This document shows, one piece after another, positions 572 to 60,240 of a stretch of 64,000 nucleotides of DNA (position 1 is its first letter; every line of letters starts with the position of its first letter). The position numbers were made by a program, and so were the translations under genes. The notes under the pieces are model-generated. The model saw nothing but the letters and a program-made list of their open reading frames with translations, had not been told where the DNA came from and did no database searches. The DNA is taken from positions 11,276,409 to 11,340,408 of the forward strand of contig OY987250.1 of assembly GCA_963920765.1 (NCBI GenBank), read 5' to 3'. The DNA comes from Ulota crispa (taxonomy: Eukaryota; Streptophyta; Bryopsida; Orthotrichales; Orthotrichaceae).

Positions 572-797
572 TTAACCCCTAAACATTTGAGCGTGACTAG
601 CACAATACAAGTGGTTTTTCTTGTATTTGGAATAGATTCACATCTTTTCTACTTTTGAGATCAACAAAAAAGTTGGAGAATAAATCAAAACAATTCCAGT
701 GCACTACTTGAGATCCCAAATTAAAACTTTTTCTTGGTAGCAAATGCCAGTTATACGGCAGCGTATGTACTATGCCCTATGGTCATTTAAGGGTTAA
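572..797 (+). mobile_element. TTAA-flanked MITE, family A, copy 1
   Basis: The left end is TTAACCCCTAAA and the right end is TTTAAGGGTTAA. The body shares long stretches (CTTGTATTTGGAAT, GAGATCAACAAA, CAAATTAAAACTTTTT, GGTAGCAAATGCCA) with copies at 25488, 30434 and 58149. It is about 230 bp and non-coding. The TTAA at both ends fits a TTAA target duplication. Its ends have decayed more than those of the other copies. Confidence 0.75.
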
Positions 798-1292
798 GTT
801 CTTGCAAATATTTAAATTTGAAACAATAAATGAATACAAACTTCTCTGTTGTACAACAATTCAAATTTTATCCATTCACATAGATCACAGTCTTTGTTTT
901 GGTAGTTTTAAGGTATAGTTCAATAAATATAGATACGTTTCCTCTCAAGAAAATCGGCTATTTAAACAAGATTTCAATAACAAATATGATTTTTTTAAAG
1001 TCTTAAAAATAATTGCAATAACAATGTAATGTAATTTTATCTAAAGAAAAACGCATACTGTAAAAACCTCTAATACCTAATCTACAATAGATTTCTAAAA
1101 AACAAATTGAATTATTTGCTTCAAAACTATTGATAACTACTAATAAGTGCAATGGTAAACAAATTGTACAAACATATGATATATTCATAGGTCATAACAT
1201 AAAACCTTAGTTGGAAAATCATCAGTAATTACTCTTCTAGAGAAACCTAGAGTACTCGTAGCCCTAAAGCGAGCCCTAAAGAGATTAATTCC
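798..1292. other. Unassigned AT-rich DNA
   Basis: Only short frames occur (61 codons on the minus strand), in low-complexity AT-rich sequence. No repeat ends were recognised. Confidence 0.45.
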
Positions 1293-2638
1293 TCAACCCA
1301 TAAAGGACCAATATCCCTACAAGGTTCAAAGTGGATTTTGGGCAAATTTGTACTACTAGAATTTTTGACCAATTTTTTGAAGTTTTTTTCTAAAATTTAA
1401 TTTTATAAGGGCTACAAAGGATATAAGATTTTTTATGGAAATGAGATTTTTGCTTCAAAAGTTATGAGGAGTTTTCCTGGGGTTTTAGTGAAATTATGGT
1501 TGCAGGGGCAAGTCAAGCATGCTATTTTTCATCAACTTTTTCCAAAAGCAACCAATGAAGGCATGACCCCTCTTTGGAATATATTCAAAGCAACAATATA
1601 CTGGATAATAAATTTTTATATTGGACAAATACACTAACCTTTGAATTGTAATAGTTGTAAGAGATTTCGTTTTTTTTTTCAATTTTTTTTTTGTGGTCAC
1701 CTATCAAGCTAATCTATGAATCCATTGCTTGGATTTTGATGTTGTCCATGAAATGTTGTGGAGATATTCTTAACTTGATTTGGAGCAAGTAGGTCAAATC
1801 TCTTTAGCACCCATAGTGCAAAAATCCCACAACACGCAATCAAAAGGAATTGTTTTTTTTTGCAAATATCAAAAAAGTTTCATACTAAGGGTCGCTTTAC
1901 ACTATGGCCAAAGGTCAAGAGGCCGTTGATTTCCACCAATCAAATTGCAAGAAACCAAGAGTTTGGCCTCTTGACCTTTCACACTAGAGGCCAAAGTCCA
2001 AAGTTCCTCACCTCCCACAATATCACTCTTTAATCCAAAACAACGGCCTCTCAAGAAAAGTTTGGGTCAAGCAATCAAAGAGACCCAAACTATGGTTGAG
2101 AGGCCGTCAAATTTTTTCATAAAATAATCAAAAGCTGACAAGGTATTGGCCATTAGATTAGGAAGGTTAAATAAATGTTATGATCCCAAATTTTGGATTT
2201 GTCCTTTAGAGGCTTCACACTATGGCCATTCAAGTTGAAAGGCTGTGGAAGTTCATTATCAAGAGTTTGGCCTTTGGACTTGGCATTTGGAAACTTCACA
2301 CTAAGGGCAACCAAAAGTGTCAAAAACAATATTTTATTGTCTAATGAAACATTTCTTTGAACTCACAACAAAGTTTGGCCACTCAATCCCACGGCCTCTT
2401 GACTTGGTTGGCCATACTGTGAAGCTACTTAGCTACCCTAACTTCTAATGATCATATCTCTCAATCCTTATATACAATCCTCACAAAACTTTCACACTGT
2501 TCTCTTACATAAATCTAATGCAAAAGACTACCATTAGATTTATGAAAACCTAAAAAACTTGTTTTTGAGATCAAATGATTAGAAATGACAATTTTGAGTG
2601 TTTTTGAGGACACATGGGTTTGATCCTTTAGGAGTTAA
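1293..2638 (+). mobile_element. TTAA-type MITE, family I, copy 1, split by another element
   Basis: The left end (CTCAACCCATAAAGGACCA) is degraded and the right end is TGATCCTTTAGGAGTTAA. Segments on both sides of 1888-2432 align, in inverse orientation, with the uninterrupted copy at 11768-12676. Examples are the AATCTCTTTAGCA..ATAGTGCAAAAAT stretch on the left and the CACTCAAAATTGTCAT stretch (reverse strand) at the right end. The interruption is a separate foldback. No coding capacity is credible. Confidence 0.7.
1888..2432. mobile_element. Foldback MITE nested in family I
   Basis: Left end AGGGTCGCTTTACACTATGG and right end CATACTGTGAAGCTACTTAG are imperfect inverted repeats; GGTCAAGAGGCCGT on the left pairs with CACGGCCTCTTGACTTGG on the right. 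The internal phrase CACACTATGGCC recurs. CTA flanks both sides (1885-1887 and 2433-2435). Removing the element and one CTA joins the flanks into a sequence that closely matches the unoccupied site in the family I copy near 11960-11985. Confidence 0.75.
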
Positions 2639-3346
2639 ACACCCGGTGTATAAATTTTTTATTAATCAATGAATGTGAACAAGTTCCATGTATTTATAAA
2701 CTCAACTCTCTCATCTACCCATTTTTCAAAAGATTCTTATGTTGATTCTCAAATATTTATATCATACTAACTAATCAGTAAATCTAAATTAGAAAAAAAA
2801 AAAAAAAAAAAACCTAGATTCAAAAATGAAAAAGTAGTTTCACCTCAAAGACCAATAATTCCTATTTCGAAAACTAGACTTTGTAAAATGGCATCAAAAA
2901 TATAAGTGCACCAAACGTACATCAAATAGTTCATGTTGGTTGCTTTAATAATCGGGTTGCCTTGCTTTGTAAAGTTCTATCATGCCTCATTGCTTGGCTA
3001 CTTGGAGGAGTATGCAACTCTCTAAATATTAGGCTTTTATATGGTTTACAATCTCAATGATTCTAGTTTGTTTTTCTGCAATGTTATTGATGTTGTCAAG
3101 TCCTTATTGATGTTGATAGTTTTTTATTGCAATAATTATGGATGCAAATTATTGTATAGTGCCCTCCAACAAGTCCTTATACATCTTGTTTTGCCTTTCA
3201 AAGAACTTTGCTAAAATGAAATGTAATTGGCATATTTTAGTTTTGAAGCATAGGAATATGATTCTTATGCAATCTCAATCAAGTGTGCCAAATTTTGATC
3301 CCTGAAAACCAAAATCTCATTATTGGTGAATTATTTTGTATTAAAC
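2639..3346. other. Mostly unassigned; start resembles repeat X
   Basis: The first 120 bases or so (AATGAATGTGAACAAG.. AGATTCTTATGTTG) resemble the element at 12673-12914, which also abuts a family I copy. A poly-A run lies at about 2793-2812. The rest shows no recognisable feature. Confidence 0.4.
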
Positions 3347-6274: not shown

Positions 6275-6930
6275 TTAACCCCTAAAGGACCCTAAGGACA
6301 GAATGTGTCCTCAACCAATTTTTGAAGTCAAATAAATTTTGACCATATTACTACTTTTTAGAAGTTTATTTTTTTGAAATATTCTTTTTGAAGTTTAGTT
6401 TTAGCTTCAACAATCCAATTTTACAAATGATTGGTTGCAGTTTTTATATTCAAGATTTTGTGCACGTTGTCCATTGTAATCTTGACTTTATGTTATGTTG
6501 AGGGCTCTTGGGAATGAGCCTCAAATACACTAGATCTTTGAGAAAAAATCACATTAGAAATTCATTTAAAAAAATTGTAGAGTAGATTTTGAGAAGTCAT
6601 AAATTGATTGGGGTTATGCATGTTAAGTCCTTTAACCTTGTGTTTTTTTGGTGACCAAGTTTTCAAATTTGACATGTGAAAAGAAGATTGAAAGACTTCA
6701 AATCACTTTCACAGCTTTAACACCCTCATGATCAAACATTATAATCTTTCAATCCATAAGAGATATTGTTGTGTTCTCTTTTCTAATGTGATCTTTAACA
6801 TGTCTAATTTAGTTTTATACGGAAACAACTATAAAAAAATTTGATACAACAAATCAAAATGTTGGCTTTTTGTTCAACTTAGAGCAAATTCTTAGAAGCT
6901 CAAGAAATTCCAGGGTCCCTTAGGGGTTAA
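6275..6930 (+). mobile_element. TTAA-flanked MITE, family E, copy 1
   Basis: Left end TTAACCCCTAAAGGACCC and right end GGGTCCCTTAGGGGTTAA form a terminal inverted repeat. Two further copies lie at 34509-35162 and 35159-35820 in the opposite orientation; they share GAGGCTCATTCCCAAGAGCC, AACACAACAATATCTCTTATG and similar blocks. No transposase is encoded. The right TTAA is shared with the next element. Confidence 0.85.
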
Positions 6931-7233: not shown

Positions 7234-7235
7234 TA

Positions 7236-7546
7236 AAGTAGGAACACCCATAAGCGTCAGCGTCTCCATAACCGTCACCTCTAAAATCTTGGAAAATCTA
7301 TGGAAGTAACTAGATGTAATGACAAGGATGTACAACATGTGAACATGAAATTTTAAAAGTGGTTATGGGTGCAATGGCAATTTGCTCTTTAAGAATTCAC
7401 AACTTATTCTCACAATATCCAAATAATACATTCAAAAGTGCAAACTCATTTTTTTTGTTCCTAATAGGATTGTGTAATTTGCTAGTTGTTTATTAATAGT
7501 CATCATGTTCAAACCCTTAGTTTGGCGTTTATGGGTGCTCCTACCT
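7236..7546. mobile_element. TA-flanked MITE, family F, copy 1
   Basis: Left end AAGTAGGAACACCCATAAGC and right end GTTTATGGGTGCTCCTACCT are inverted repeats. TA lies on each side (7234-7235 and 7547-7548). The same ends occur at 27143-27453 and related ends elsewhere. A TA duplication suggests a Tc1/mariner-type element. It abuts the Tourist-like element on its left and family D on its right. Confidence 0.8.
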
Positions 7547-8459
7547 TAACCCTTTAAAAACCACATACATTTTCACAAAATCCATTAGAAATAAGAGCAG
7601 TAAACTTGGATGTGCGGTTGAATCAAATATGGATCTGATTTCAAAAATCCAACCATACAAATGGGAACTACACATTGTTTACTATAAAGTATCAAAAATT
7701 CAACTAGATCTACTATTGGAGGTGAAATATTATAATGATTGAGTGAGCTGTATATGGAAAATACCTAGTTTTTCATGCTTATGTGGTTTTGGATCTTACT
7801 ACTTCATACAAGCTTTGTTTGAGAAGAGTCATATTCCTAAAAAGTAGGGTTTCTCAACTTTCCAATGAGACTAGTTCCACACAAAATGGATAAAAATAGC
7901 AATCACAGAGTGTAGCTAAGTGGACAAGAAAGTGTCAAAAATCCTACTTTATTTGCTATCCAAAAATAGTTCTACAAGAAATTTGATAAATTTTATGGAA
8001 AATCCAATTGTTGAAAACACTCAAGAATTGGCCTTAAATGTAGGACAACAAATGTTTAATATGAAATTATAACACCATTTTAATAGATCTTCAAATATTA
8101 CAATTATACTACTACTGTATAGAGAAACAATACAAGCATATTTCTTGAGGAATTTGAAATTATTTCGGACCGCACAATTGAAATTTGACATTCTTCTTGG
8201 ATGTTTGATGTATTGTGTTGTTGCTTTGATCCATCTTTGACCAAATATGGATACGTATTTTGAGACCATGCTGTATAAACATAATTATTCATCAACTCAC
8301 ATGCTTGATTACATTGTTTTTTATTTGGTTGGGTGCAAAATTCTTGTGAGCACAAGCAATCATCAAGACCTATTTCCAAATTGTTGAAATTTTTTACTCT
8401 ATAAGCCAAAAACCACTCTCCCTAACCAAAATATGGTTTGATGGTCTATAAAGGATTAA
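7546..8459 (+). mobile_element. TTAA-flanked element, family D, copy 1
   Basis: The left end is TTAACCCTTTAAAAACCACA and the right end is TATAAAGGATTAA. The body is shared with 10868-11771 (inverted) and with both halves of 55301-58152. On its minus strand an 82-codon frame (8021-8269) recurs in the 10868 copy. That frame resembles no family I know and probably reflects only sequence similarity between copies. Confidence 0.85.
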
Positions 8460-9118
8460 GGGGTGACAACTTTGTGGGTTGCTAACTTGCTATACAAGTA
8501 TACAAGCAACCATCAGATAACTCTGGATGAATTCAGGATAAAGCTTTACAGAAATTGGAGGTTTGATACCCCTAATAAATGTGACTGTCGTCAACAAAAT
8601 CCTTGGTGTCATCAAGCACATTATATCAAATCCTTCACATTTGTGGAAGTGTGGAGAACCCCTGGTGCAGTGGCTTGTAAAAGAGGTTCCCAAGAGGGCC
8701 AGGGGGGTAAGGGGCTCGGTTAATTAGGGTGAGAGACTCTGGCAAGAGCGGTATTAATGCGGGGGGGCCGGGGGGGTCTCAGAAAATCTCAGCTGACAGG
8801 AGAAGCGGAACTCTATAATCTTGGTTGGTTTGGTACAGCCCCCCAGCCCCAGGCAGGCAGCCAGGCTTTGAAAGAGGGCAACAGTCAGATCCCTTGGATG
8901 GGCCTTGCCCCTTTTATTATGAAACCCCTTCCTTCCCCTTCAGTAAATTAGTTCAGTAAATTAGTTCAGTAAATTAGTTCAGTAAATTAGTTCAGTAAAT
9001 TAGTTCAGTAAATTAGTTCAGTACCCTTTCACTCTAACTTACTCCACTGCCCATGCCCCCCGTCCACCCCTGACTCCCTGACTCCCCTCCAAATGTGATT
9101 CTCACTAGGAAAACTTTA
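8460..9118. other. GC-rich island with 13-bp tandem repeat
   Basis: Roughly 8640-9110 is much richer in G and C than its surroundings, with G runs near 8700-8777 and C runs near 8838-8850 and 9050-9090. Short plus-strand frames (8463-8723 and 8757-8951) resemble no known protein. It may be a fragment of an LTR or of a captured gene; I cannot decide. Confidence 0.45.
8939..9023. repeat. 13-bp tandem repeat
   Basis: The unit TTCAGTAAATTAG is repeated about six and a half times with no visible variation, which suggests recent expansion. Confidence 0.95.
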
Positions 9119-10154: not shown

Positions 10155-10222
<68 letters not shown>

Positions 10223-10867: not shown

Positions 10868-11771
10868 TTAACCCTTTAGAGACCACTGAACCATGAGAGT
10901 AGTTTTTGGCTTATACAGTAAAATTGCCCAACAATTTGGAAAACCATCTTGAAGAATGATTGTGATCACAAGAATTTTGCATCCAACCCAAAAAACAACA
11001 ATAGAATCGGATATAGGAGTTGATAAATAATGGTGTTTATACATCATGGCTTCAAAATATGTATCCATATTTGGTCAAAGATGGATCAAAGCAACAACAC
11101 AATACATCAAACATCCAAGAAGAATGCCAAATTTCAATTGTGCGGTCCCAAAAAATTTCAAATTGCTCAAGAAATACGCTTGTATTGTTTCTATATATGG
11201 TTGTAATATAATTGTAGTATTTCGAGATCTATTGAAATGGTGCTATTATTTCATCTTAAAAATTTATTGTCCTACATTTAAGGCCAATTCTTGATTGTTT
11301 TCACTGATTGGATTTTCCATAACAATTATCAAATTTCTTGTAGAACCGTCTTAGGGTAGCAAAGAAAACGGGATTTTTGATCTTTTTTTGTCCACTTAGC
11401 TACACTCTGTGATTGCTATTTTTGTCTATTTTGAGTGAAACTAGTCTTGTTGGAAAGGTGGGAAACCTTGCTTTCTAGAAATGTAAGGCTCTTATCAACC
11501 AAAGCTTGCATGAAGCATTAACATTGAAAACCACATAAGCATGAAAAACTAGAGATTTTCCATATACAGCTCACTCAATCATTATAATATTTCACCTTCA
11601 ACGGTAGATCTAATTGAAATTTTGACACATTACAAAAAACAAGGTGTCCTTCACATTTGTATGGTTAAATTATTCAAATTGGGTCCATATTTGATTCAAA
11701 TGCACATCTAATCTTATTGCCATGGTTTCTAGTGGATTTTGGGAAAATGTGTGTGGTCTTTAAAGGGTTAA
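10868..11771 (-). mobile_element. TTAA-flanked element, family D, copy 2
   Basis: Left end TTAACCCTTTAGAGACCAC and right end GTGGTCTTTAAAGGGTTAA form an almost perfect terminal inverted repeat. This is the least disturbed D copy (904 bp). It supplies the empty site for the LTR insertion in the D copy at 55301 (AATGTTAATGCTTCATGC on its reverse strand, near 11505-11530). The right TTAA is shared with the next element. Confidence 0.9.
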
Positions 11772-12676
11772 CTCCTTAATTGCTAAAGCAGACCAAGCAC
11801 ATTTTTTCTCAAAGAAGACTCAAAATTGTCATGTCTAGTGATTTGTTCCCAAAAACAATCTTTTTGAAAAAAGATCAAATCTAACCTTAGAATCTTGTAG
11901 AAGACTCATTCAGGAACATCCCATGAAAATATTGTGAAGTTTGACCATAGAGATTGAGAGACATGATCATCTTAAGGTAGTATAAAGTTTTTTTACTCGT
12001 GCCCAAAATTTTCAGGTGCCTTTGACCACATGTGATGAACAATTTTTGCACTATTGATGCTAAAGAGATTTGTTCTAACATGCTCTAAATCATGTTAGGC
12101 ATATCTCTTGAAGTTTTTGTGATCAACCAAGACATGGAACACACCCTCCATGGCCTTGCATTGCAAACATGTGCTTAAAATTCACACTACATTGAGGTTT
12201 TTTGCCAACCAAGTTTTCTAAAGATACACTAAAGAAAATAAAAATCCAAGCAGCACATTGGAAGAGTTTAGCTTCATTGAAAATCTCAAGAAAGAAAATT
12301 GGAAAAAAAATTAAATCTCTAGTAGCTATTGCAATTCAAAGGTTAATGAATTTATCAAATACAATAATGTATTTATTTAGTACACTATTGCTTTGGATAG
12401 ATTCCAATGAAGGGTTATCCCTTCATTGGTTCCCCTTGGGAGAAGTTAACAAAAAGTGGCATGCCCAAGCTGCTCCTCCAACTAAAATTCACATGTTTAA
12501 CCTTATAACTTGTGAACAATAAATCAAAATTTAGTAAAAATTGTTCTCCCACGTAACTCTTGCAAAACTTTACCTTTAGGGAAAAATCATAAAATTTGGT
12601 CATAAATTGTAGTAGCATGACCTTGCCCAAAATCCTATTTGCCCCCCTTAGGGACAAGTGGTCCTTTAGGAGTTAA
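11768..12676 (-). mobile_element. TTAA-flanked element, family I, copy 2
   Basis: It begins TTAACTCCTTAATTGC and ends GTGGTCCTTTAGGAGTTAA. It is the uninterrupted counterpart of 1293-2638, in inverse orientation. Frames such as 12202-12522 (106 codons) match the translated minus strand of copy 1 only because the DNA matches; no protein family is recognised. Confidence 0.8.
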
Positions 12677-12914
12677 CCCCTTATGGATCAAGAGTTCAAT
12701 AATGAATGTAAACAATTTTCACAAACTTGGATTTTACATCCATCCACATGTTATTAGATTCTTGTGTTGGTTTTCTTGTACTATTTTTATATTTTCATCC
12801 AAAAAAAATCTTTACAATTACTCTACAATTCACTTCAGAACTACAATACAGTTGTGCACCTTTATGAAACTTCGAAGATCTCTTCCCCAGGACCCTAGGT
12901 GGTTTCAACTTTAA
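12673..12914. mobile_element. TTAA-flanked short element X
   Basis: It runs from TTAACCCCTTATGGATC to TTTCAACTTTAA, with TTAA shared on both sides. Its first half resembles 2639-2770. The ends pair poorly, so it may be a decayed element or simply the spacer between two insertions. Confidence 0.45.
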
Positions 12915-13157
12915 CCCCTAAAGGATGTTGCCTACCAAAAATGTTGTATGTATATGTAGGAGAACCATTTAGTACTTGAAAAGAAAAACTTTACAACAAA
13001 TGTCAAAAATTCCCAAAAAATCCTAGTTGACCAGTATTATATTTCTGACTTGGCTTGAAATTTACAACTCCAATGAGATTCAAGTGCTATCCAAATACCC
13101 CATCCATATACAACACGGGAGTCTGTATACAAAACAGCAACATCCTTTAGGGGTTAA
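12911..13157. mobile_element. TTAA-flanked MITE J
   Basis: The terminal inverted repeat is perfect over at least 21 bases, TTAACCCCTAAAGGATGTTG plus C on the left and its complement on the right. It is 247 bp long and non-coding. This is the cleanest demonstration of the TTAA-CCCCTAAAGG terminus in the window. Confidence 0.92.
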
Positions 13158-13755: not shown

Positions 13756-14695
13756 TTAACCCCTAAAGGACCATTGTCCCTTTGGGGGACAAATGGGATT
13801 TTGGGCATGTACCTATGGTTAAACTACTTTGTATGATTTTTTGAAACTTTTATTGAAGGTGATGAATTCAATGATCTACGTGGGAATGTAAATTTTTCTT
13901 CATTCCAACATTTATTGAAGAAGTTATGCATGAAATTCTGGAAAATGCTGCTCTCCAAGTTGCAAAAACTTCTTTAATTTTTTTTTTTTTTTTTTTTTCA
14001 AATAAAAATCTAAAATAGGTTCTTTAAACTTATGTAGATGTGGGCAACTTTGAATTATTCAATTCCGATAGATGAGATGAAAGTTATGAGGAGTTTTTGT
14101 TTGTGGGCAATTCTAGATTCTCTACGCTATAATAAACTTCTAAGTTGTTTATTTTACTCAATTTTTAATATTTTGGAAAAAAAACAAAATCAAAGGATGG
14201 AGATTGTTTATCACAACATCATAACCGTAGGGATTTGCATTTTTCATTTTAATCATTAGATTCTTAACAATTTAGTGTTTTGTCTCATTCTCTACTTCTT
14301 TTTACTTACTATTTTTTCCCATGTGTTGTATAGTTCCAATTGGTTTGGAAATTCTCCCACACATACCTAACTTGGTCTTCTACATGGCAAAAAGAACCTC
14401 AACTTTGCATAGAGCAAATTTTTGATATAGGAGTGGTCAACGGCTTTTGAAATTTTTGGGCAGTACAAAAAAATACTTTTTTCTTTACTTCACATGTAAA
14501 TATCTCACTCCTTTTCATTTAGAATAAGCTCATTTTTTTCCCCAAATACCTCATACTATCTAGAGCAAGATCTTATGGTTAGATTTCAAAACAAAAGAAA
14601 CAAAAAAAACCAATCCTTGCATCCCCAAAAGTGGCAGCTTTCAGTGTTTTTCACAAAGAAAAGGGCCTTGTCCTTTAGAGATTAATGTATGTTTC
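13756..14695 (+). mobile_element. TTAA-flanked element, family B, copy 2
   Basis: It starts TTAACCCCTAAAGGACCATT, then TGTCCCTTTGGGGGACAA and GGGCATGTACCTATGG. It ends CCTTGTCCTTTAGAGATTAA after the typical GTGGCAGCTTTCAGTG block. It is 940 bp. There is no coding region; the 73-codon frame at 14038 is incidental. Confidence 0.9.
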
Positions 14696-16414: not shown

Positions 16415-17369
16415 TTAACCCCTAAAGGCCCAAGCCTTTTCTTCCGGTGAAAGTCATTATTAACTGTCACTTTGGGGACTTTGGGGACTTTGGGGGAATG
16501 AGTAGAAAAGTAGGAAATAAAGTTTGTTTTGCAAATTCAACAATAAAATCTTGCTTTCGACTAGAAGAGGTATTTTTGGGAAAAAATTAGGTCATTTTAG
16601 AATGAGAGGAGGGAGATATTTACATCCGAGGTGAGGGAAAAAGGTTTTTTTCCTTGCTGCTAGTAAATTTCAAAAGCCTTTAATCACTCTTACATGAAAA
16701 AAATTACTTTGCACAAAGTTGAGGTTTATTTTTTCCATGTAGAAGACCAAGTTAGGTATGTGTGTGAGAATTTTCAAATCAATTGGAACTATACAACACT
16801 TGGAGAAAGATAGTAAGTAAAAAGAAGTAGAGAATGAGTCAAATCACTAAATTGTTAAGAATTTAATGATTAAAATGAAAAATGAAAATCCCAACGGTTA
16901 TAATGTTGTAATAAACAATCTACTTCCTTAGGTTTAGTTTTTTTCCAAAATATTGAAAATTGTGGAAAATAAAGGACTTCAAAGTTTATTTTATAGTAGA
17001 GAATCCATAACTGCCTACAAACCAAAACATCTCATAACTTTCATCTCATCAATTGAAGTTGAATGATTCAAAGCTTTCCACATATGAAAAAATCTAAAGA
17101 ATTGATTTCAGATTTCTATTTTTAGAAAATACAATTTTTTAAGAAGTTTTTGGGCTACTTGGATTGCCCTCCCTCCCCCAGGCAGCAAAAATTATTGCAT
17201 AACTTCTTCGTCAAATGTCAAAATGACAAAAAATTAGATGCCTACGTAGGTCTTGGAATTCCCCACCTTCAATAAAAGTTTTAAAAAATCACAAAAACTA
17301 AATTAGCTATGGGTACATGCCCAAAATCCATTTGCCCCTCGGGGGGACAACTGGGCCTTTAGGGGTTAA
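16415..17369 (-). mobile_element. TTAA-flanked element, family B, copy 3 (inverted)
   Basis: It starts TTAACCCCTAAAGGCCCAAG and ends GGGCCTTTAGGGGTTAA. It is closely related to 36994-37922 and 58385-59323 (shared TACATCCGAGGTGAGGG and GATTGCCCTCCCTCCCCCAG), but has more differences from those two than they have from each other. Confidence 0.9.
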
Positions 17370-24498: not shown

Positions 24499-25437
24499 TT
24501 AGCCCCTAAAGGACCATTATCCCTTTGGGGGACAGGTTAGACTTCGGGCATGTACATATGGCTAAACTACTTTGTGTGATTTTCTGAAACTTTTATTGAA
24601 GGTGGGGAATTCAAAAATCTATGTGGGCATCTAATTTTTCTTTGTTCAAACATTTGATGAAGAAGTTATGCATGAATTTATGAAAACTTGGGGAGGACTG
24701 CCCATCCAAGAAGCCCAAAAACTTCTTTAAAATTTTCATTTTTTTAAAAAACAAAATTCTGAAATTGGTTCTTTAGATTTTTATATATGTGAAAAGCTTT
24801 GAATCATTCAATTTTCAATCAATGACATGAAATTATGAGGAGGTATTGTTTGCGGGCAGTTTTAGATTCTCTACTCTAAAACAAAACTTTGAAGTCCTTT
24901 ATTTTACTCAATTTTCATTATTTTGGATAAAAATTAAACCAAAAGAGGTAGATTGTTTATAACAACACTATAACCGCTGTGATTTGCATTCTTCATTTCA
25001 ATAATTGGACTCTTAACAATTTAGTGTTTTGACTCATTCTCTACTTCTTTTTACTTACTATTTTTTCCCATGTGTTGTATAGCTCCAATCGATTTGGAAA
25101 TTCTCCCACACATACCTAACTTAATCTCTTACATGGAAAATATAAAGTGCAACTTTGGATAAAGCAATTTCTTTGTTATAAGAGTGGTCAAAGGCTTCTG
25201 AAAATTTCAGGCAGCATGGAAAAAAACTTTTTTTTCACTTTAGATATAAATAGCTCACTCCTCTGCATCTATAATGAATTGATTTTTTTTCCCACAAGTA
25301 CGTCTTTTAGCCTGGGGCAAGATCCTATGGCTAGATTTTCCAAAAACAAAACATAAAATCTCTTTATACTAAACCCCTAGAAGTGGCAGTTTTTAGTGAT
25401 TTTCATAGAAAAAAAGGCTTGGTCCTTTAGAGGTTAA
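24499..25437 (+). mobile_element. TTAA-type element, family B, copy 4
   Basis: It starts TTAGCCCCTAAAGGACCATT (TTAA changed to TTAG) and ends GGTCCTTTAGAGGTTAA. It has the full family B order of blocks over 939 bp. It interrupts the dispersed CAACCTAAATG repeat. Confidence 0.88.
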
Positions 25438-25487: not shown

Positions 25488-25722
25488 TTAACCCCCAAAG
25501 GACCAAGCAGCCCTTTGCGACTAGTACAATACGGGGTATTTTTCTTGTAATTGGAGTGCATCCACACCTTCATTACATTTGAGATCAACAAAGAAGTTAG
25601 AATATAGATCAATGATGTTCCAGTGAGGTAGTCAAGATCCCAAATTAAAACTTTTTGTTGGTAGCAAATGCCAATTATTCAGCAGCGTACATAATATGTA
25701 TTATAGTAGCTCGGTCCTTTAA
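25488..25722 (+). mobile_element. TTAA-flanked MITE, family A, copy 2
   Basis: It starts TTAACCCCCAAAGGACCAAG and ends GCTCGGTCCTTTAA. It is 235 bp and shows the family blocks CTTTGCGACTAGTACAAT and GTAGCAAATGCCA. Its right TTAA is the left TTAA of the palindromic B element. Confidence 0.9.
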
Positions 25723-26446
25723 CCCCTAAAGGACCACTTGTCCCCATGGGGGACAAACGGGATTTTGGGCATGTACTTATGGCTAAACTACTTTGTGTAA
25801 TTTTCTGAAACTTTTATGGGAGATGGGGAATTCAAAGATCTGTGTGAGCATCTAATTTTTTCCTCATTCCGACATTTATTGAAGAAGTTAAAAATGAATT
25901 TATGAAAATTTTAGTTTGGCAGGCAGCCCAAAAACTTCTTTAAAATTTTTATTTATAAAAAATAAAAATTCAAGGTTAGTTCTTTAGACGTATGTATATG
26001 TGGGAAGCTTTGAATCATTCAATTCTAATTAATGAGATGAAAGTTATGAGAAGTTTTAGTTTGAGGGTAGGTGTGGAGAATCTCAAAACAATGCCTACAT
26101 GCAAACTAAAACTTCTCATGACTTTCATCTCATCAATTAGAATTGAATGATTCAAAGCTTCTCACATATACGTACGTCTAAAGAACTAACCTTGAATTTT
26201 TATTTTTTATAAATGCAATTTTTAAAGAAGCTTTTGGGCTACCCACCAAACTAAAATTTTCATAAATTCATTTTTAACTTCTTCAATAAATGTCGGAATG
26301 AGGAAAAAATTAGATGCTCACACAGATCTTTGAATTCCCCATCTCCCATAAAAGTTTCAAAAAATTACACAAAGTAGTTTAGCCATAGGTACGTGCTTGA
26401 AATCTCATTTGTCCCCAAAAAGGGGACTTGGTCCTTTAAGGGTTAA
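25719..26446. mobile_element. Family B element rearranged into a full-length palindrome
   Basis: The left arm (25719 to about 26070) is the left part of family B in the usual order. The right arm (about 26100-26446) is the same sequence inverted, ending CTTGGTCCTTTAAGGGTTAA. Arms pair over about 340 bp with scattered mismatches, separated by a short spacer near 26070-26100. The normal right half of family B is missing. A transcript would fold into a long hairpin. Confidence 0.9.
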
Positions 26447-27663: not shown

Positions 27664-28592
27664 ATGAACCCCTCAAGGATTGTTGTTCCATCGGGGGACA
27701 AATGGGATTTTGGGCATGTACCTGCACTTAAACTAGTTTTTGTGATTTTTTGAAACCTTCATTGAAGGTGGAGAATTCAAAGATCTAAGTGGGCATCTAA
27801 TTTTTTCTTCATTTTGACATTCAATGAAAAAGTTATGCAATAATTTATCAAAACTATGGGAGGAGGGGTAGTTTGGGCAAGGCCTCTCCTTTGTAAGTGG
27901 GTGCTAACTCCAAAGAGGGTTAGCTCTTATGGGCATAAGGTATGGACACTTGGTAAAGAAGAGTGGAGTGGAAGGTGCCCATCTTGGGGGACTTCCAACC
28001 CTCCATTCCTTTTGCCCCTTGTAAAATTTAGTACTTTAATTTTTTGAGCAGTTTGTGTACTTGTTTTTTTGTTTTTTTTCCAAGTTGTAGTGGGCTAAGA
28101 GACCTTGCATTTCACCATTAAGATTAGTGTAATACAAATTTCTGAATTTTACATAAATTCTCCAATTTTGCCTAGTATATTAGTAAATTTCAAGATCTTC
28201 AAGCATTCAAAGATTTTTTGGGATATGTTGTAGACTTCATTTAAAATTTCTCCCCCACATGCCTAACTAGGTTTTCTACATGGATAAATTAAACTTGAAC
28301 TTTGTGTAGAGTAATTTTTTTGCTATAGGAGCGGTCAAAGGCTTCTAAAATTTTTGGGCAAGAAGGAAAAAAAACTCTTTTTTTCTCTTCAAATGTCAAT
28401 ATCTCACTCTTCTCACGAAATGAGCTAGTTTCTTTTTCCCACAAGTACCTTCTATAATCTAGGGCAAGATCCTACAATCATGTTTTAAAAAATAAACATT
28501 TTTTTCTATCTTTCTACTCATTGCCCTAGAAGTGGCAGTTTTTAGTGACTTTTGCAAAAAAAAAAAAAGAATTCAGTCCTTTAGGTGTTTAA
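27664..28592 (+). mobile_element. TTAA-type element, family B, copy 5
   Basis: The left end is decayed (TGAACCCCTCAAGGATTG) and the right end is CAGTCCTTTAGGTGTTTAA. The blocks GGGGGACAAATGGG, TGGGCATGTACCTG and GTGGCAGTTTTTAGTGA identify family B. The segment 27860-28110 has diverged and aligns best with the enlarged copy around 5520-5660. Confidence 0.82.
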
Positions 28593-34508: not shown

Positions 34509-35162
34509 TTAACCCCAAAACTACAAATGGATTTCCTGTGCTTTTAGGATTATGCTATAATTTGAACAAAAAGCCAACATTTTGATAAGTCTTATCAATT
34601 TTTTTAAACTGTAATTGTATAAAATCAAACTAGACATATTATAGATCACATGAGAAAAGAAAACACAACAATATCTCTTATGGATTGAAAGATTATAATG
34701 TTTGATCATGAGGGTGTTAAAACCTTGAAAGTGATTTGAAGTCTTTCAATCTTCTTTTCACATGTCAAATTTGAAAACTTGGTCACCAAAAAAACATGAG
34801 GTTCAAGGGCCTAACATGCATAACCCCAATCAATTTATGACTTCTCAAAATCTACTCTACAATTTTTTTAAATGAATTTCTAATGTGATTTTCTCTCAAA
34901 GATCTAGTGTATTTGAGGCTCATTCCCAAGAGCCCTCAACACTACATAAAGTCAAGATTGCAATGGACACCCATGCACAAAATCTTGAAAAGAAAACCCA
35001 TAACCAATCATTTGCAAAATCGGATTGTGGAAGCTAAAACTAAACTTCAAAAAGATTTTTTCAAAAAAATAAACTACTAAAAGTAACAATTTGATAAAAA
35101 TTTATTTGACTTCAAAAATTGGTTGAAGAAACATTTTGTCCTCAGGGTCATCTTGGGGTTAA
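34509..35162 (-). mobile_element. TTAA-flanked MITE, family E, copy 2
   Basis: It matches 6275-6930 inverted. The left end TTAACCCCAAAACTAC is decayed and the right end is CATCTTGGGGTTAA. It abuts another E copy at a single shared TTAA. Confidence 0.85.
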
Positions 35163-35820
35163 CCCTAGATTGCCCACAAATGTTCTCCAGTATCTTAGAA
35201 TGTGCTCTTGGATGAATAGAATGGCAACATTTTGATAAATTACATCATTTTTTTATAAATTGTAACCGTACAAATTCAAACTAGATATGTTAGAGATAAC
35301 ATAGGAAAAGAAAACACAACAATATCACTTATGGATTGAAAAATTATAACATTTGATGAAGAGGGTGTTAAAATTGTGATAGTGATTTGAAGTCTTTCAA
35401 TCCTCTTTTCACATCTCAAATTTAAAATTGAGGATGTCAAACAAAATATGAGTATGTAAAATACAACATGTGTAACCCTAACCAATTTACGGCTTATTAA
35501 AATCTACTCTACAACTTTTTAAATTAAATTTCTAATGTGATTGTTTCTCCAAGTTCTAGTGTACTTGAGGCTCATCTCCAAGAGCTCTCAACACTAGAAA
35601 GTGAAAATTTGCAATGGATTCCCTTGCACAAAATCTTGAATAGACAAATCATAGTCATTCATTTTCAAAATTGGATTTTTGATACTAAAACAAGATTTTA
35701 ATAAGAATAATTTAAAAAAAAACTACTTAAATTAATTTTCAATAAAAATAAAAAAACTTCAAATTAAAATGCACAGCAGCCACATTCCATCCCCTTGGGC
35801 GGTCTAAGGTTAAGGGTTAA
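35159..35820 (-). mobile_element. TTAA-flanked MITE, family E, copy 3
   Basis: It is in the same orientation as the preceding copy and shares AAACTAGA.ATGTTA.AGAT and AGAAAACACAACAATATC blocks with it. It is more diverged, with left end TTAACCCTAGATTGCCC. Two same-family copies placed head to tail are unusual. Confidence 0.8.
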
Positions 35821-36993: not shown

Positions 36994-37922
36994 TTCACCC
37001 CTAAAAGCCCCCAGGGGGACAAATGAATTTTGGGCATGTACCTATAGCTAATCTGGTTTTTGTGATTTTTTGAAACTTTATTGAAAGTGGGGAATTTCAA
37101 GACCTACACAGGCATCATATTTTTTTGTCATTATGACATTTAACGAAGAAGTTATGCAATAATTTCTGCTGCCTGGGGGAGGGAGGGCAATCCAAGTAGC
37201 CCAAAAACTTCTTAAAAAATTGTATTTTCTAAAAATAGAAATCTGAAATCAATTCTTTAGATTGTTTCATATGTGGAAAGCTTTGAATCATTCAACTTCA
37301 ATTGATGAGATGAAAGTTATGAGATGTTTTGGTTTGTAGGCAGTTATGGATTCTCTACTATAAAATAAACTTTGAAGTCCTTTATTTTCCACAATTTTCA
37401 ATATTTTGGAAAAAAACTAAACCTAAGGAAGTAGATTGTTTATTACAACATTATAACCGTTGGGATTTTCATTTTTCATTTTAATCATTAAATTCTTAAC
37501 AATTTAGTGATTTGACTCATTCTCTACTTCTTTTTACTTACTATCTTTCTCCAAGTGTTGTATAGTTCCAATTGATTTGAAAATTCTCACACACATACCT
37601 AACTTGGTCTTCTACATGGAAAAAATAAATCTCAACTTTGTGCAAAGTAATTTTTTTCATGTAAGAGTGCTCACAGGCTTTTGAAATTTACTAGCAGCAA
37701 GGAAAAAAACCTTTTTCCCTCACCTCGGATGTAAATATCTCCCTTCTCTCCATATAGAATGACCTGATTTTTTTCCAAAAGTACCTCTTCTAGTCTAAGG
37801 CAAGATCCCACGGTTGGATTTGCAAAACAAACTTTATTTCCTACTTTACTACTCATTCCCCCCAAAGTGGCAGTTAACAGTGATTTCCACTAGAAGAAAG
37901 GGCTTGGGCCTTCAAGGGTTAT
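36994..37922 (+). mobile_element. TTAA-type element, family B, copy 6
   Basis: It is nearly identical over most of its length to 58385-59323 inverted. A 64-codon stretch on the minus strand (37671-37865) translates to the same residues as the plus strand at 58445-58636. The flanks are TTCA and TTAT rather than TTAA, so the ends have changed or the copy was moved by another route. Confidence 0.88.
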
Positions 37923-37923
37923 T

Positions 37924-38702
37924 CTTAAGTGCTCACATTGTTTTCACTAAAATCAGGGTTTTTGAAAATCAACAACATTGATGCATTGTACCTTGGTCAA
38001 TCAAATGATCCACAGAAAGTGACCATTGAAAATAGTGGAACGCCTACCTATAAAATGGTTTCCAAATTTTGGGAACAATTCACCATGGGTGTTGGGAGAT
38101 TGTAAAATTTGATCAAACAACATGTGATGACAAAATCTTGTTTTTTGGTAGGTAGTTGCTATTTGATGATATTTACAAAATTCTATAAGCCCCGGATTCA
38201 TCTCAAAACTTGGGAGCAGCAAGATTAGATGTGAATGCACACACTTGTAAATTATTGAAGATTGCGCTTTTTTTTAGGTCAAGTTTTAGGGCTTCAAATG
38301 ATTATTGCATGGAAAACAATGATCGGTAGAGACGGTGACGGTTGCCATAATTAGGGTCTAGAACATGCTTGAACCCTTGCCAACAACTTTCTTGCTACCA
38401 CAAAGCTTACACAAAGAAGCTTGCAAGGGGTATTGACTGGTTGCAACCTGTAAAACACTGCTTGCCACCACACCTTGTATGCTTGCCACCACTCCCTATA
38501 TGGTGTTTCATTCAATCAATCTCTTGCAACACTTATACAACATTTGGCTTTCCTCGCTATTATTCCATTGGCATGGACAACTTCAATGCCTTCATGATTG
38601 TAGTTTATGTAGCAAGATCAAAAAGTTGGATCCAATCCCTCAAAACAAGGCTTTCATATCGTGGGAGGTGATGTAGGGGGCGCTAGGGCGCTTAGGAATT
38701 AA
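37924..38702 (+). mobile_element. TTAA-flanked element, family H, copy 2
   Basis: It starts TTAAGTGCTCACATTG and ends GGGCGCTTAGGAATTAA. The GC-richer ends are inverted relative to 30697-31457. Its right TTAA carries the next insertion. Confidence 0.7.
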
Positions 38703-44558: not shown

Positions 44559-45103
44559 TTAACCCCTAAAGGCCCAAGGGGGTAAGGGCAAAAAAACACT
44601 ATAAGGGAACTATGTCAACTTAGACATTTTTTGTAGGTTTGGTTATGTTGATTTGGACATTTTTTTTGTTATTGGAGATATTTTTTTGTTATTTTGAACA
44701 CATTTAGTCAATTAGGACATGTCAATTTGGACAATTTTTTTTATAGTGAAATAGATGTGTTATAAAATGGTACTTTTGTAATTTTGATGAAGTTTGCTTC
44801 AAAAGAGAAAATAAGAATCATAACTTTTAGTAATTATCCATATGGTCAAACACTCAAAAAAAGTTTTGGATTTTTATATAATGAATTTAGAAGCATTTAT
44901 CATTTAATATTCATCAAAATTATAAATTTTACTCTTAGATTTTGAAATTTGGTATGATTGGTTAAAAATAAACATTTTATCCTAAACTACAAAAATGCAA
45001 TCTTTTGAAAAAAGAGAACATCATTAATTTCCCAAAATAGTAAATTTTACAACACTCGCAAATATTGAAGTGTTTGTCTTTGGAGAATTCTATTTGGTGG
45101 AGT

Positions 45104-45402
45104 TTAACTTGGATTGACATGATTCAAGTTAAGTTGGAAAGTAGACTTGATTTTCTATTACAAAAAAAAAAATTAAAGTAATTTTGTTTTGGGTAGCTCA
45201 AGAAAAACAACAGCGACCAAAAAATGGTCAATTGGGCACTTAGGGGATAAAAATGCCCAATTGACAATTTCTTGGTCACTGCCCTTTTTTGCAGGCTACT
45301 TGAGATGAAAAAAAAACATTTTTTGGAAAAATAAAAAATATTTTCATATAGGAAAGCAAGACTACTTTCCAACCCAATTTGAATCTTATCAATCTAAGTT
45401 AA
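45104..45402. mobile_element. Foldback element O nested in N
   Basis: It runs from TTAACTTGGATTGACATGAT to AATCTTATCAATCTAAGTTAA, and the arms continue (GTTGGAAAGTAGACTTG / CAAGACTACTTTCCAAC). Its ends lack CCCCTAAAGG but it is bounded by TTAA. Its right TTAA is the left TTAA of M. Confidence 0.88.
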
Positions 45403-46356
45403 CCCCTAAAGGACCAAGGGTGCTTTTTGAGAAAAATTCTCAAAAAGTGCCAACTTTTAGAGCATTGCCCAAAATTGAAATTAGAAACCTTTATTCTCAA
45501 TTTCAACTATAAGTTTTTTTGCAAAACAAATAAAATAATATGTGCAAAAAAATTCAGCCCATTTGAGCACTTGGATTTCAAGATTATAATGCTTGAAGTG
45601 AGAAAAACTATTTTTTTTTATTCTTGCAAAACAAGGTGAGCATACTTTGACCCTTTCTAGAGTAAACTTTTTGCTCTAAACAAATTTGAGCTTTTTGACC
45701 ATTCACAAGTATATGATGTTACGTTCACTCACGTAAATTTTCAGATTCAAAAATACAATCTAGCTTGTTCTAAATCATCCTCCAATGCAAAGAGGTTAAG
45801 CGAATTGGCAATACATTAGTCACTCTTTCATGATTTCTTGTGCAACTAGGAAGTCTTTTATTTGAAATCTGAATGGTGAAAAAATAGAAATAAACATTTG
45901 AAACATATGAAAAAAAGTTTCAAGAGTTTTGGATTTACATATTGAAAGATAATAGGGCCTAGAGTTAGAGGAATTTTTTTCTTGAAACTGCCCAAACATA
46001 GTTAACAAAGTTTGACTCCCTTCAAAATGTGATGCAAGAGCTCAATTTTTTTTTTTTGACAATTGTACACCATGTTTTTTTAGGTAACATACTTGCCAAA
46101 TTTCAAAAGTTGATGAGAGTTTTAGCATAAGATTCTCCAAAAATACCCAAACTGCCCAAGTTGCCCAATTTCTTTTGGGCAACATAACTTTTGAACTGAG
46201 CATCCAATTGGGGAAAATTTTATATTTCCACTTGGGAGATACATATCTACACCTTGTGTAACAATCTTGAGAACATTCAATCAAAATTAGCTCCATATGA
46301 CCGTACCCAAGTTCTCAAGTGATTATTGAACAACCACTTGGTCCTTTAGGGGTTAA
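45399..46356 (+). mobile_element. TTAA-flanked element, family M, copy 1, nested in N
   Basis: It starts TTAACCCCTAAAGGACCAAG and ends CTTGGTCCTTTAGGGGTTAA, a perfect terminal inverted repeat of about 20 bases. It matches 49340-50337 inverted (AACATAGTTAACAAAGTTTG, TTGATGAGAGTTT.AGCATAAGA). At 958 bp, no transposase is present. Confidence 0.93.
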
Positions 46357-46743
46357 ATTCCACCAAGGAGATTTTTTGAATGACAAACACTTCAATATTT
46401 GCTAGTGTCATAAAATTTACTTTTTCAAGAAACCAATTACATTCTCTCCTTCAAAAACATTTCATTCTTGAGTTTTAGAATAAAATTTCTATTTTTAACC
46501 AATCATACCAACTTTAAATTCTATGAAATAAATTTGTAATTTTGATGAATATTAAATGGTAAATACTTCTAAATTCATTAAATAAGAGTCCAAAACTTTT
46601 TTTGAATGTTTAATTGTATGGATAATTACCAAATGTCATGACTCTTATTTTCTCTTTTGAAGCAAACTTCATCAAAATTACAAAAGTGTCATTTTATGAG
46701 GCATTTATGTTTTGCCCTTACCCCTTGAGCGTTTAGGGGTTAA

Positions 46744-47676: not shown

Positions 47677-48605
47677 TTAACCCCTAAAGGACCATGTCCC
47701 TTTGGGGGACAAATGTGATTTTGGGCAGGTACCTATGGCCTCAATTTTTGTTTTAATTTCTTGAAACTTTTTTTGAGGATAGAAAAACACATTAGTTTTT
47801 GGGGAATCTAACTTATATTCCAATTGATGCCAGGGAGCAAAAGTTATGCCCAAATAAGTACAAATTTGGGGACTAGGGGCAGCAAAAAAAAGTCTTATAA
47901 AAACTTGAAAAAAAAATTAGTTTTTTTTTCTTATAGATTATATCTTTAGTTACTTTTGAAGCTTTGATTCATTCCATTTGGACTAGTTATGAGAAAGTTA
48001 TGGACAATCTTGTTTTTTGAGCAACTCAAGCATTTTCTTGAAAAAATAACTTATAAACTTCATTTTTGAATGCAGATTTAACATTTTTTCAAAAAAAATT
48101 ATTGGAGAGGGTGAAGTTTGCTTTCTAGAACAATCTCACCATTGGGATTATTGCGTTTCAATTCCATTGCACGGTTATTAGCAATTTAAGTTTTTCTTCA
48201 ATCTCATACCTTCTTCTACCTAATGTTTTTTTAATGAGTGAAAATTAAGTATTCTTTTTTGAAATTTTTTCCCAAGATTCCCAACTCAACTTCCCACCAT
48301 GCAAAAATAGAATTCCAAACTCTATGGTGCAAAAATTTTAAGTTAAAAATGTTCAAAGTTAAAAAATCTAGTCAAGCAAGGTGCAAAAAAAGTTGTTTTT
48401 TACACTTTAAATGCAAATATCTTCCAATCTCTGCAGTCAAAGTTCTTGAGTTTTGTATGACATATTCTTAATAGTAGTCTAGCATAAGATCCTATGGTCA
48501 GATATGCAAAATGCTTGATTTTCAAACTTTTTTACTCTTTGCCATAGAGGTGACAGTTTTGAGTGTCTTTTGACAAAATAAAGGCCATGGTCCTTTAGGG
48601 GTTAA
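47677..48605 (+). mobile_element. TTAA-flanked element L (relative of family B)
   Basis: It starts TTAACCCCTAAAGGACCATG and ends CATGGTCCTTTAGGGGTTAA, a perfect terminal inverted repeat of about 20 bases. It opens like family B (TCCCTTTGGGGGACAAATG, ATTTTGGGCAGGTACCTATG) but its interior is distinct, so it is a separate subfamily. Confidence 0.92.
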
Positions 48606-49483: not shown

Positions 49484-49525
<42 letters not shown>

Positions 49526-54811: not shown

Positions 54812-54813
54812 TA

Positions 54814-58148: not shown

Positions 58149-58388
58149 TTAACCCTTAAAGGACCAAGGAGCCCTTTGCGGCCAATACAATATCTAGTAT
58201 TTTCTTGTATTTGGAATGCATCCACACCTTTACTACATTTGAGATCAACAAAAAAGTTAAAATATAGATCAATGCAATTCTAGTGAGCTAGTCAAATTCC
58301 CAAATTAAAACTTTTTATTGGTAGCAAATGCTAGTTATACGGCAGCTTATTTACTATGTAATACATAGAGCGGTCCTTTAAGGATTAA
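58149..58388 (+). mobile_element. TTAA-flanked MITE, family A, copy 4
   Basis: It starts TTAACCCTTAAAGGACCAAG and ends GCGGTCCTTTAAGGATTAA (240 bp). Both TTAA ends are shared with neighbouring elements. Confidence 0.9.
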
Positions 58389-59323
58389 CCCTTGAAGGCC
58401 CAAGCCCTTTCTTCTAGTGGAAATCACTGTTAATGGCCACTTTGGGGGGAATGAGTAGTAAAGTAGGAAATAAAGTTTGTTTTGCAAATCCAACCGTGGG
58501 ATCTTGCCTTAGACTAGAAGAGGTACTTTTGGAAAAAAATCAGGTCATTCTATATGGAGAGAAGGGAGATATTTACATCCGAGGTGAGGGAAAAAGGTTT
58601 TTTTCCTTGCTGCTAGTAAATTTCAAAAGCCTGTGATCACTCTTACATGAAAAAAATTACTTTGCACAAAGTTGAGATTTATTTTTTCCATGTAGAAGAC
58701 CAAGTTAGGTATGTGTGTGAGAATTTTCAAATCAATTGGAACTATACAACACTTGGAGAAAGATAGTAAGTAAAAAGAAGTAGAGAATGAGTCAAATCAC
58801 TAAATTGTTAAGAATTTAATGATTAAAATGAAAAATGAAAATCCCAACGGTTATAATGTTGTAATAAACAATCTACTTCCTTAGGTTTAGTTTTTTTTTC
58901 CAAAATATTGAAAATTGTGGAAAATAAAGGACTTCAAAGTTTATTTTATAGTAGAGAATCCATAATTGCCCACAAACCAAAACATCTCATAACTTTCATC
59001 TCATCAATTGAAGTTGAATGATTCAAAGCTTTCCACATATGAAACAATCTAAAGAATTGATTTCAGATTTCTATTTTTAGAAAATACAATTTTTTAAGAA
59101 GTTTTTGGGCTACTTGGATTGCCCTCCCTCCCCCAGGCAGCAGAAATTATTGCATGACTTCTTTGTTAAATGTCATAATTAAAAAAAATATGATGCCTGC
59201 GTGGGTCTTGAAATTCCCCACTTTCAATAAAAGTTTCAAAAAATCACAAAAACCAGATTAGCTATAGGTACATGCCCAAAATCCATTTTTCCCTGGGGGG
59301 ATAGCTGGGCTTTTAGGGGTTAA
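58385..59323 (-). mobile_element. TTAA-flanked element, family B, copy 7 (inverted)
   Basis: It is nearly identical to 36994-37922 inverted. It starts TTAACCCTTGAAGGCCCAAG and ends GGGCTTTTAGGGGTTAA. The 67-codon frame at 58433-58636 is a by-product of this similarity. Confidence 0.92.
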
Positions 59324-60240
59324 TCCCTAAAGGACCATACCCTTTTTTTTAGAAACATAGCGATTTTGGGCAAGTACTTGTGATTGGAGCTTTTCATATT
59401 TTAGGCTGAAATTTTAACAGAATGTGGGGATGAGGGTCATCTTTCATAGCACTAAATTCATGACAGTTGGAATTATGAGTAAAAAGTTAAGGCCTAATAT
59501 GTTGTTTCTTACATTTGTCGGGCAATTTGAGCAGATTTTTTAAAATTGGCTTTTTACAAAACACTAATTTTAGATTGGTTTAGGAGATTTAGGTGAATTT
59601 AAGAAGCTTGAATCATTTTGTTTGGATCAACGAGGTGAAAGTTATGAGGATTTTTTGTTTGCAGGCAGTTGTGGATTCTCTACTCCAAATTAAACTTTGA
59701 AGTTCGTTATTTTACTCAATTTTCAACATTTTGGAAAAAAAACAAAACCAAAGGATGAGAATTGTTTATGACAAGATTATGACCATTGGGATTGGCATTT
59801 TTCATTTCCATAATTATATTCTTAACAATTTAGTGCTTTGAATCATTCTCTACTTCTTTTTACTTACTAATTTTTTTCCATATGTTATACAACTCCAAAT
59901 GATTTGAAACTTCTTTGACATATACTTTACTGAGGTGGAATAAGGAATTTAGAAGAGCACCACCCACATGGTCTTTTTTCCTTAGGAATTTCACCTTCTG
60001 AAGGGTAGCTGACTGATTTTTTTTACAAGACATTGTTGAATACTCAAACCATTCTAACTTCCAATCCATGTGGTGGAAAACTCTGAAATTTTTTCCATAT
60101 CTTCTATAACCATTCTTTTACAAGATCCCACGATCACATATGCATAAAAATGTTTTTATTTTCAAAATTTGTTGATGCTCTCAAAATGACAGTTTTGAAG
60201 TGTCTTTGGTAAAAACTTTGCTTGGTCTTTTAGGGGTTAA
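59320..60240 (+). mobile_element. TTAA-flanked element, family C, copy 2
   Basis: It starts TTAATCCCTAAAGGACCATA and ends GCTTGGTCTTTTAGGGGTTAA. It is the inverse relative of 14756-15682. The centre is shared with family B (CTCTACTTCTTTTTACTTACTA). Confidence 0.9.

Follow-up and report, generated by a model that had tools for sequence, protein, structure and literature searches.

The closest described systems are the piggyBac transposons, of which the Trichoplusia ni element is about 2.5 kb long, and the miniature inverted-repeat transposable elements (MITEs) derived from piggyBac in animals such as corals and insects, which are short, non-coding and TTAA-flanked and keep the piggyBac termini. 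Among plant MITEs, Stowaway elements duplicate TA on insertion. For Tourist elements a duplication of TAA or TTA is given (PMC10004981). Here a stretch of 64,000 nucleotides of contig OY987250.1 from the moss Ulota crispa (hereafter the window, located on chromosome 9) is analysed, in which short TTAA-flanked elements with CCC-starting ends lie close together. These elements are almost certainly non-autonomous MITEs of the piggyBac superfamily residing in the nuclear genome of a moss, the main group having arisen by internal deletion from piggyBac elements of 8–9 kb. The evidence comes from transposase-carrying elements of the same genome that have the same termini, and from the length of the target-site duplication.

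Ends, pairing and groups of the window elements

The window has 12 exact copies of the end sequence TTAACCCCTAAAGG, eight of them forward and four reverse. Allowing up to two mismatches raises the number to 45, against a mean of 0.74 after shuffling, and none of 100 shuffles reaches 45; the many TTAA-CCCC(T)AAAGG ends seen by an earlier, sequence-only reading of the window are therefore borne out. In the 275 Mb of genome searched, this 14-base end has 15,411 exact copies (7719 + 7692), compared with 1 for the reversed control. The density of exact ends is 187/Mb in the window and 56/Mb on average in the genome, i.e. about threefold higher in the window. For 11,954 ends of the form CCCCTAAAGGNCCA, an exact TTAA directly precedes 10,100, and VTAA precedes 433.

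From the end lists and self-alignments, 24 candidate end pairs were picked by hand, rather than by a blind algorithm, and were grouped by coverage of at least 50% of the longer element; unpaired ends, for example those at 4283, 33814, 43254, 51634 and 55301, were left out. The pairs are listed below in window coordinates, together with the uninterrupted insertion-site copy discussed in the next section; strand is given where assigned, and TIR denotes the terminal inverted repeat.

572..797, element of 226 bp; TTAA on both sides, TIR agreement 7/16; grouped with 25488 and 58149
1293..2638, element; left target-site sequence TCAA, right TTAA; grouped with 11768-12676
6275..6930, element of 656 bp; TTAA on both sides; grouped with 34509 and 35159
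7546..8462, element of 917 bp; CCCTTTA-type end, right end not placed; grouped with 10868-11771
10868..11771, element of 904 bp; CCCTTTA[AG]AGACCAC ends, TTAA on both sides
11768..12676, reverse strand, element of 909 bp; TTAA on both sides; matches the L011 3' terminus
12911..13157, element of 247 bp; TIR 16/16, TTAA on both sides
13756..14685, forward strand, main-group MITE of 930 bp; both termini match the transposase-carrying L025
14746..15682, element of 937 bp; TTAA on both sides; grouped with 59320-60240
16415..17369, reverse strand, main-group MITE of 955 bp; TTAA on both sides
24499..25437, forward strand, main-group MITE of 939 bp; TTAG left, TTAA right
25488..25722, short element; shares its right TTAA with the left side of 25719-26446; right TIR lacks its first bases
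25719..26446, foldback element of 728 bp; fully palindromic, arm identity 89.8%, left arm of main-group type
27665..28591, forward strand, diverged main-group MITE of 927 bp; TGAA left, TTTA right
34509..35162, element of 654 bp; TTAA on both sides, TIR 9/16
35159..35820, element of 662 bp; TTAA at 35159-35162 common with its neighbour, TIR 7/16
36994..37924, forward strand, main-group MITE; left target-site sequence TTCA, right end not placed
44559..46743, foldback element of 2185 bp; interrupted by 45399-46356, other arm provides the empty site
45044..45158, reverse strand, uninterrupted insertion-site copy with one TTAA; 115 bp, 82.6% identical to the flanks of 45399-46356 when joined
45399..46356, element of 958 bp nested in 44559-46743; TTAA on both sides, TIR 16/16
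47677..48605, element of 929 bp; TIR 16/16, TTAA on both sides; termini match L025
49340..50337, element of 998 bp; TTAA on both sides; grouped with 45399-46356
58149..58388, element of 240 bp; TTAA on both sides, the right one common with the next element
58385..59323, reverse strand, main-group MITE of 939 bp; TTAA on both sides
59320..60240, element of 921 bp; TTAA on both sides; right end matches the L025 right end

TTAA is found at both ends of 19 of the 24 elements. In three (1293-2638, 24499-25437 and 27665-28591) one or both copies are altered, and in two (7546-8462 and 36994-37924) the right end is not placed. Four of the 19 (572, 11768, 34509 and 35159) have inverted repeats that agree at just 7–9 of 16 positions. 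The length is 226–1346 bp in 23 elements, the remaining one being the interrupted element of 2185 bp. The 24 elements fall into 10 sequence groups within the 64 kb, and a Pfam scan of 10 of the 11 open reading frames (ORFs) of at least 110 aa in the window gave no match. The elements are thus short, without coding capacity, bounded by inverted repeats and present in high copy number, as is characteristic of MITEs.

These results agree largely with the sequence-only reading, whose range of 572-60240 is that of the outermost ends of the 24 pairs. Its "more than 20 elements" holds if the five with altered TTAA or unplaced right end are counted. Its statement of TTAA on both sides applies to the 19 elements, and the absence of any longer duplication outside TTAA agrees with the flanks as judged by eye. 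Multiple internal types do exist, although "at least a dozen" is somewhat high for 10 groups.

Two main-group copies, 36994-37924 and 58385-59323, are 96.8% identical, which suggests fairly recent, though not necessarily continuing, movement. The foldback element at 25719-26446 consists of one complete inverted repeat and could form a long hairpin RNA. Since several neighbours in the window share one TTAA, element ends were considered as preferred targets. The exact back-to-back palindrome occurs at just 21 sites, and the idea of self-targeting was dropped because, by a rough hand estimate, random choice of TTAA would give some tens of such sites.

Target site and length of the duplication

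The element at 45399-46356 is inserted in one arm of the foldback element 44559-46743, of which the other arm is uninterrupted and carries a single TTAA. A search for empty sites covered 36 candidate pairs in 232 kb and gave four matches, of which one is this true empty site, two are self-overlaps of neighbours with a shared TTAA, and one is end-to-end similarity only. Because TTAA is palindromic, an empty site with a single TTAA does not by itself separate a duplication of TTAA from one of TA.

The palindrome leaves room for a different origin, in which the elements would be mariner-like, duplicating TA (2 bp), with ACCCC at the termini and TTAA as the favoured target, or Harbinger-like, with a 3-bp TAA duplication. 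Palindromic TTAA on both sides cannot alone tell these from a TTAA duplication, and the five superfamilies that take most plant MITEs include mariner and Harbinger (PMC12550479). The copies preceded by CTAA bear on the question, because an element duplicating TA or TAA would keep its own T on the right. Among 20 CTAA-left copies, the right side is CTAA in 7, TTAA in 6 and another sequence in 5, and no right end is found in 2. Of 16 TTAA-left control ends, 15 have TTAA and one has ATAA on the right, and none has CTAA. The probability of at least 7 right-hand CTAA in 20 by independent mutation is 7e-10 to 8e-8 at a rate of 1–2% per end and 3e-5 at 5%; at the estimated 1.4% per end, a rate obtained by counting CTAA by hand in 100 VTAA places, the first of 433, it is 9e-9. 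The CTAA-CTAA pairs therefore support a 4-base duplication over one of TA or TAA. Coding elements with the same termini, moreover, encode a piggyBac transposase (see below). A mariner-like or Harbinger-like origin is accordingly extremely improbable.

These counts were made on copies in the order of their listing, beginning with 16 VTAA places and continuing with 12 CTAA, 4 ATAA and 4 GTAA (100 of the 433 are listed), the right end being the site with the fewest mismatches within 1100 bp. This rule picked a wrong site for L055 (TTAA at 1390) and was shifted by one base for L061 (CTAA by eye); both were scored as non-matches. Of the GTAA-left copies, one of nine is self-matching on the right, with one sequence counted twice. 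The same GTAA-flanked MITE with its flank is found at C1:177893 and C1:194617, in opposite orientation and 17 kb apart, and constitutes an inverted duplication.

The TTAA duplication for which the sequence-only reading sought confirmation is supported by the single-TTAA empty site and the seven CTAA-CTAA pairs, both of which fit a 4-base target. Empty sites lacking TTAA, which that reading named as a refuting outcome, were not seen; the one empty site has TTAA.

Transposase-carrying elements and their relation to the window elements

A profile search with PF13843 (DDE_Tnp_1_7) gave 120 matches in the genome, with a best E-value of 1.3e-73, and matches in none of 14 control genomes. In a tree of 22 of these domains at least eight deep lineages are resolved, some inner branches being weakly supported. 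PF13843 is the sole Pfam domain in all four transposase pieces scanned. The L012 transposase matches the PDB structures of Myotis piggyBat (9c0f, 1e-24) and Trichoplusia ni piggyBac (6x67, 9.8e-20). The catalytic aspartate motifs vDE, DN and GVDvaDQ are kept in this alignment, and the vDE/DN/GVD..D motifs are visible in most of the 22 translations, some of them mutated. In three additional ORFs close to transposases, Pfam gave no match above the cut-off and a weak DUF1970 match below it, and no cargo gene is proposed; in the L012 ORF scanned for a second gene, the first ~12 residues are artificial.

Seven transposase-carrying elements are bounded by TTAA on both sides:

L009, 5.0 kb; best TTAA pair, inverted-repeat score 12/18, runner-up 11
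L010, 6.0 kb; score 12/18, runner-up 12; left end CTC
L012, 5.7 kb; score 16/18, runner-up 14
L096, C1:1176510-1184004, 7.5 kb; score 13 against 11; CCCTTGCA ends
L011, C7:11814404-11822436, 8.0 kb; PF13843; TTAACCCCTAAA[AG]G ends on both sides
L025, C5:24506226-24515054, 8.8 kb; PF13843; TTAACCCCTAAA[AG]G ends on both sides
L026, C9:12440860-12449389, 8.5 kb; PF13843; TTAACCCCTAAA[AG]G ends on both sides

For L009, L010 and L012 the ends were taken from the TTAA pair whose inverted repeats scored highest over 18 bases. In L009 and L010 this score does not settle the choice by itself, and the pair was decided by its CCC or CTC starts and by where it lies with respect to the domain. The left end of L011 was chosen among several by its likeness to L025. 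Around further transposases, the search for TTAA-flanked ends found none for L019 and L036 and weak ones for L016; L035 is bounded at the right end only, and L022 has a left-end candidate only.

The ends of the bounded coding elements are variants of one theme, namely CCCCTCATCGCC, CYCCTAAGCRCCC, CCCCTAAATGCC, CCCCTAAARG and CCCTTGCA, and all begin with CCC except for the left end of L010, which begins with CTC. The termini of L011, L025 and L026, including the target, read TTAA-CCCCTAAA[AG]G, and it is the end type of this lineage that the window elements have. The CCCTTTA-type group of the window resembles the right end of L035 (CCCTTTAGCGACC).

The similarity extends well beyond the ends. 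The left 180 bp of L025 are 91% identical to window positions 13756-13935. Its right terminus matches that of five main-group MITEs at 70–77% identity, to within 3 bases of the terminal TTAA; for 13756-14685 the right 351 bp are 76% identical to it. L026 is 82% identical to 13756-13932 and 79% to 14324-14651, where the match stops 34 bp before the terminus; its 69% match to 25073-25437 reaches the terminus. Since the termini of main-group MITEs match those of both L025 and L026, these MITEs are internally deleted piggyBac elements. Outside the main group, 11775-12369, within 11768-12676, is 73.7% identical to the 3' terminus of L011 in a 601-bp alignment, and 2440-2638, within 1293-2638, is 70.5% identical to the L011 3' end. 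The element at 47677-48605 is 83% identical to the left terminus of L025 over 95 bp and 72% to the right one over 82 bp, and that at 59320-60240 matches the L025 right end over its right 51 bp (81%). The element regions of L009, L010 and L012 gave no match to the 24 window elements, matches outside their ends being separate elements. As these three belong to other lineages, the terminal match is lineage-specific.

It may be asked whether the transposase loci are parents at all, or whether MITE ends just happen to be close to piggyBac pseudogenes of no relation to them. MITEs are dense and nest in one another, and L011 itself holds one at 3017-3942 of its assembled stretch, so that proximity by chance is conceivable. 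In L025, L026 and L011, however, the distance from the domain to the right end is similar (1705, 1756 and 1940 bp, respectively), with the left end 4.9–6.0 kb upstream, and L025 and L026 align with each other at the two termini as well as in the domain and the region 5' of it. Chance proximity is therefore given hardly any weight.

Several points weigh against the derivation of the window elements from piggyBac. Just 10 of the 120 PF13843 matches are without an internal stop, and the transposases of L011, L025 and L026 all hold stops. Pfam did not recognise a C-terminal zinc domain, a cysteine-rich tail being visible in L012. At the target, there is just the one true empty site among the 36 candidate pairs; 13 of the 20 CTAA-left copies lack CTAA on the right (6 TTAA, 5 other, 2 without a right end), and none of seven ATAA-left copies is self-matching, one having CTAA on the right. 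Internal sequence is common with coding elements in just four of the 10 groups (main, 11768/1293, 47677 and 14746/59320), in the last of these over just ~50 bp of a single end. For the remaining six groups, which are linked by ends and TTAA alone, no parent was found, and the central part of the main-group MITE is likewise without an assigned parent.

The restriction of common internal sequence to four of the 10 groups is also what would be expected if another TTAA-using superfamily, such as Kolobok or Sola3, made the MITEs and the piggyBac ends were common through convergence or capture. Against this stand the ~180 bp of left and ~350 bp of right terminal homology in L025 and L026, which is far beyond what convergent inverted repeats would give. 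No transposase of another type was seen in elements with these ends, although no search was aimed at other families beside the ends. Such an origin is regarded as very unlikely, if slightly less so than the two alternatives considered above. The choice left by the sequence-only reading, between an expansion of piggyBac-like elements and convergence of another superfamily on TTAA, thus falls to piggyBac through the coding elements with the same termini. The search it proposed, for an autonomous element that carries a DDE_Tnp_1_7 domain between such ends, succeeded as to coding elements (L011, L025 and L026) and not as to autonomy, in view of the stops. Judged by their reading frames, these three can be called relatives of autonomous elements, and not demonstrably functional copies.

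The proposed piggyBac origin may be pictured as follows. In the parent-type elements the encoded transposase is of the DDE_Tnp_1_7 type and has the piggyBac D-D-D/D motifs. By analogy with known piggyBac biochemistry, the enzyme would most likely recognise CCCCTAAAGGACCAAG-type ends, excise the element and insert it at TTAA, or occasionally CTAA, with duplication of four bases. MITEs, needing the ends only, could be moved in trans and so amplified to thousands, and the groups tied to coding elements by their ends only would presumably use the same enzymes.

L096, with CCCTTGCA ends, has open transposase segments that look split into several exons, and is possibly an intact autonomous copy. A domesticated transposase had been considered at C1:1180709-1181995 on account of its stop-free stretches; it lies within this TTAA-bounded 7.5-kb element, and is most likely a transposon copy. 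In three cases two transposase matches score equally or almost so and are opposite in orientation (C2:36765124/36779670, C7:18203169/18223004 and C10:676128/785346), as if they lay in large inverted duplications or assembly palindromes.

Host genome and comparison with known systems

The plant host assumed in the sequence-only reading is confirmed by plastid-type genes in the genome, namely rbcL, a short accD and psaA/psaB. The contig carrying plastid genes is 112.5 kb long. The PDB chains closest to PsaB are 8htu, 6l35 and 7ksq, all from Physcomitrium photosystem I. Many scattered fragments of plastid rbcL and psaA/psaB are found on the long contigs C1-C10. On a 122-kb contig, a plastid rbcL fragment is fused in frame to a long ORF that seems not to be of plastid origin (G000:C97:118173-118940, L030; 769 aa), perhaps reflecting a chimeric contig or contamination.

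In the literature, piggyBac is listed among plant superfamilies (PMC10794571), among angiosperm MITE superfamilies (PMC10004981) and among the superfamilies found in all groups studied (PMC4438587), and is said to have been isolated from insects, fungi and plants (PMC10813416). A table for the C-fern gives 1,230 PiggyBac fragments, or 0.00% (PMC6890710). A survey of 207 plant genomes places MITEs in five superfamilies and one special group, and the word piggyBac is absent from its main text (PMC12550479). In a moss genome paper both occurrences of the string are "piggybacking" (PMC10619864), and the main text of the Ulota crispa genome note has no word beginning with "repeat" (PMC11803377). 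Animal piggyBac already serves as a tool in rice; as of 2017 it was untried in the moss Physcomitrella (PMC5505980). No description of piggyBac elements in a moss, or of such an expansion in a land plant, was found in the open-licence literature searched. Within that literature, the superfamily is known and its occurrence in plants already listed, and what is new is the scale and the variety of lineages in a moss. A MITE pipeline of the type used in the survey (PMC12550479) could misfile elements like these.

A wider reading is that of a long, multi-lineage piggyBac radiation in mosses, with large and in part apparently intron-bearing elements, and of a land-plant genome in which piggyBac MITEs, and not those of Mutator, hAT or mariner, rank among the foremost classes of small repeats. 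For this reading the balance is about even.

Compared with plant Stowaway and Tourist MITEs, the window elements are similarly short, with inverted repeats and high copy number, but differ in superfamily, as Stowaway and Tourist belong to Tc1/Mariner and PIF/Harbinger. From the animal piggyBac MITEs they differ in their plant host, in their diversity (10 groups among 24 elements in 64 kb) and in their number (15,411 exact ends in 275 Mb). With the piggyBac superfamily as represented by Trichoplusia ni piggyBac (6x67) and Myotis piggyBat (9c0f), the system has in common the DDE_Tnp_1_7 domain, the D-D-D/D motifs, the TTAA duplication and the CCC-starting TIRs. In contrast to known piggyBac, it has a moss as host, bounded elements of 5.0–8.8 kb, CCCCTAAAGG-type inverted repeats and many diverged lineages in one genome. 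A moss with so many exact piggyBac-type ends, and with transposases of many diverged lineages, alters the view of the hosts in which piggyBac flourishes, and offers a plant setting for the study of a TTAA-targeting transposon.

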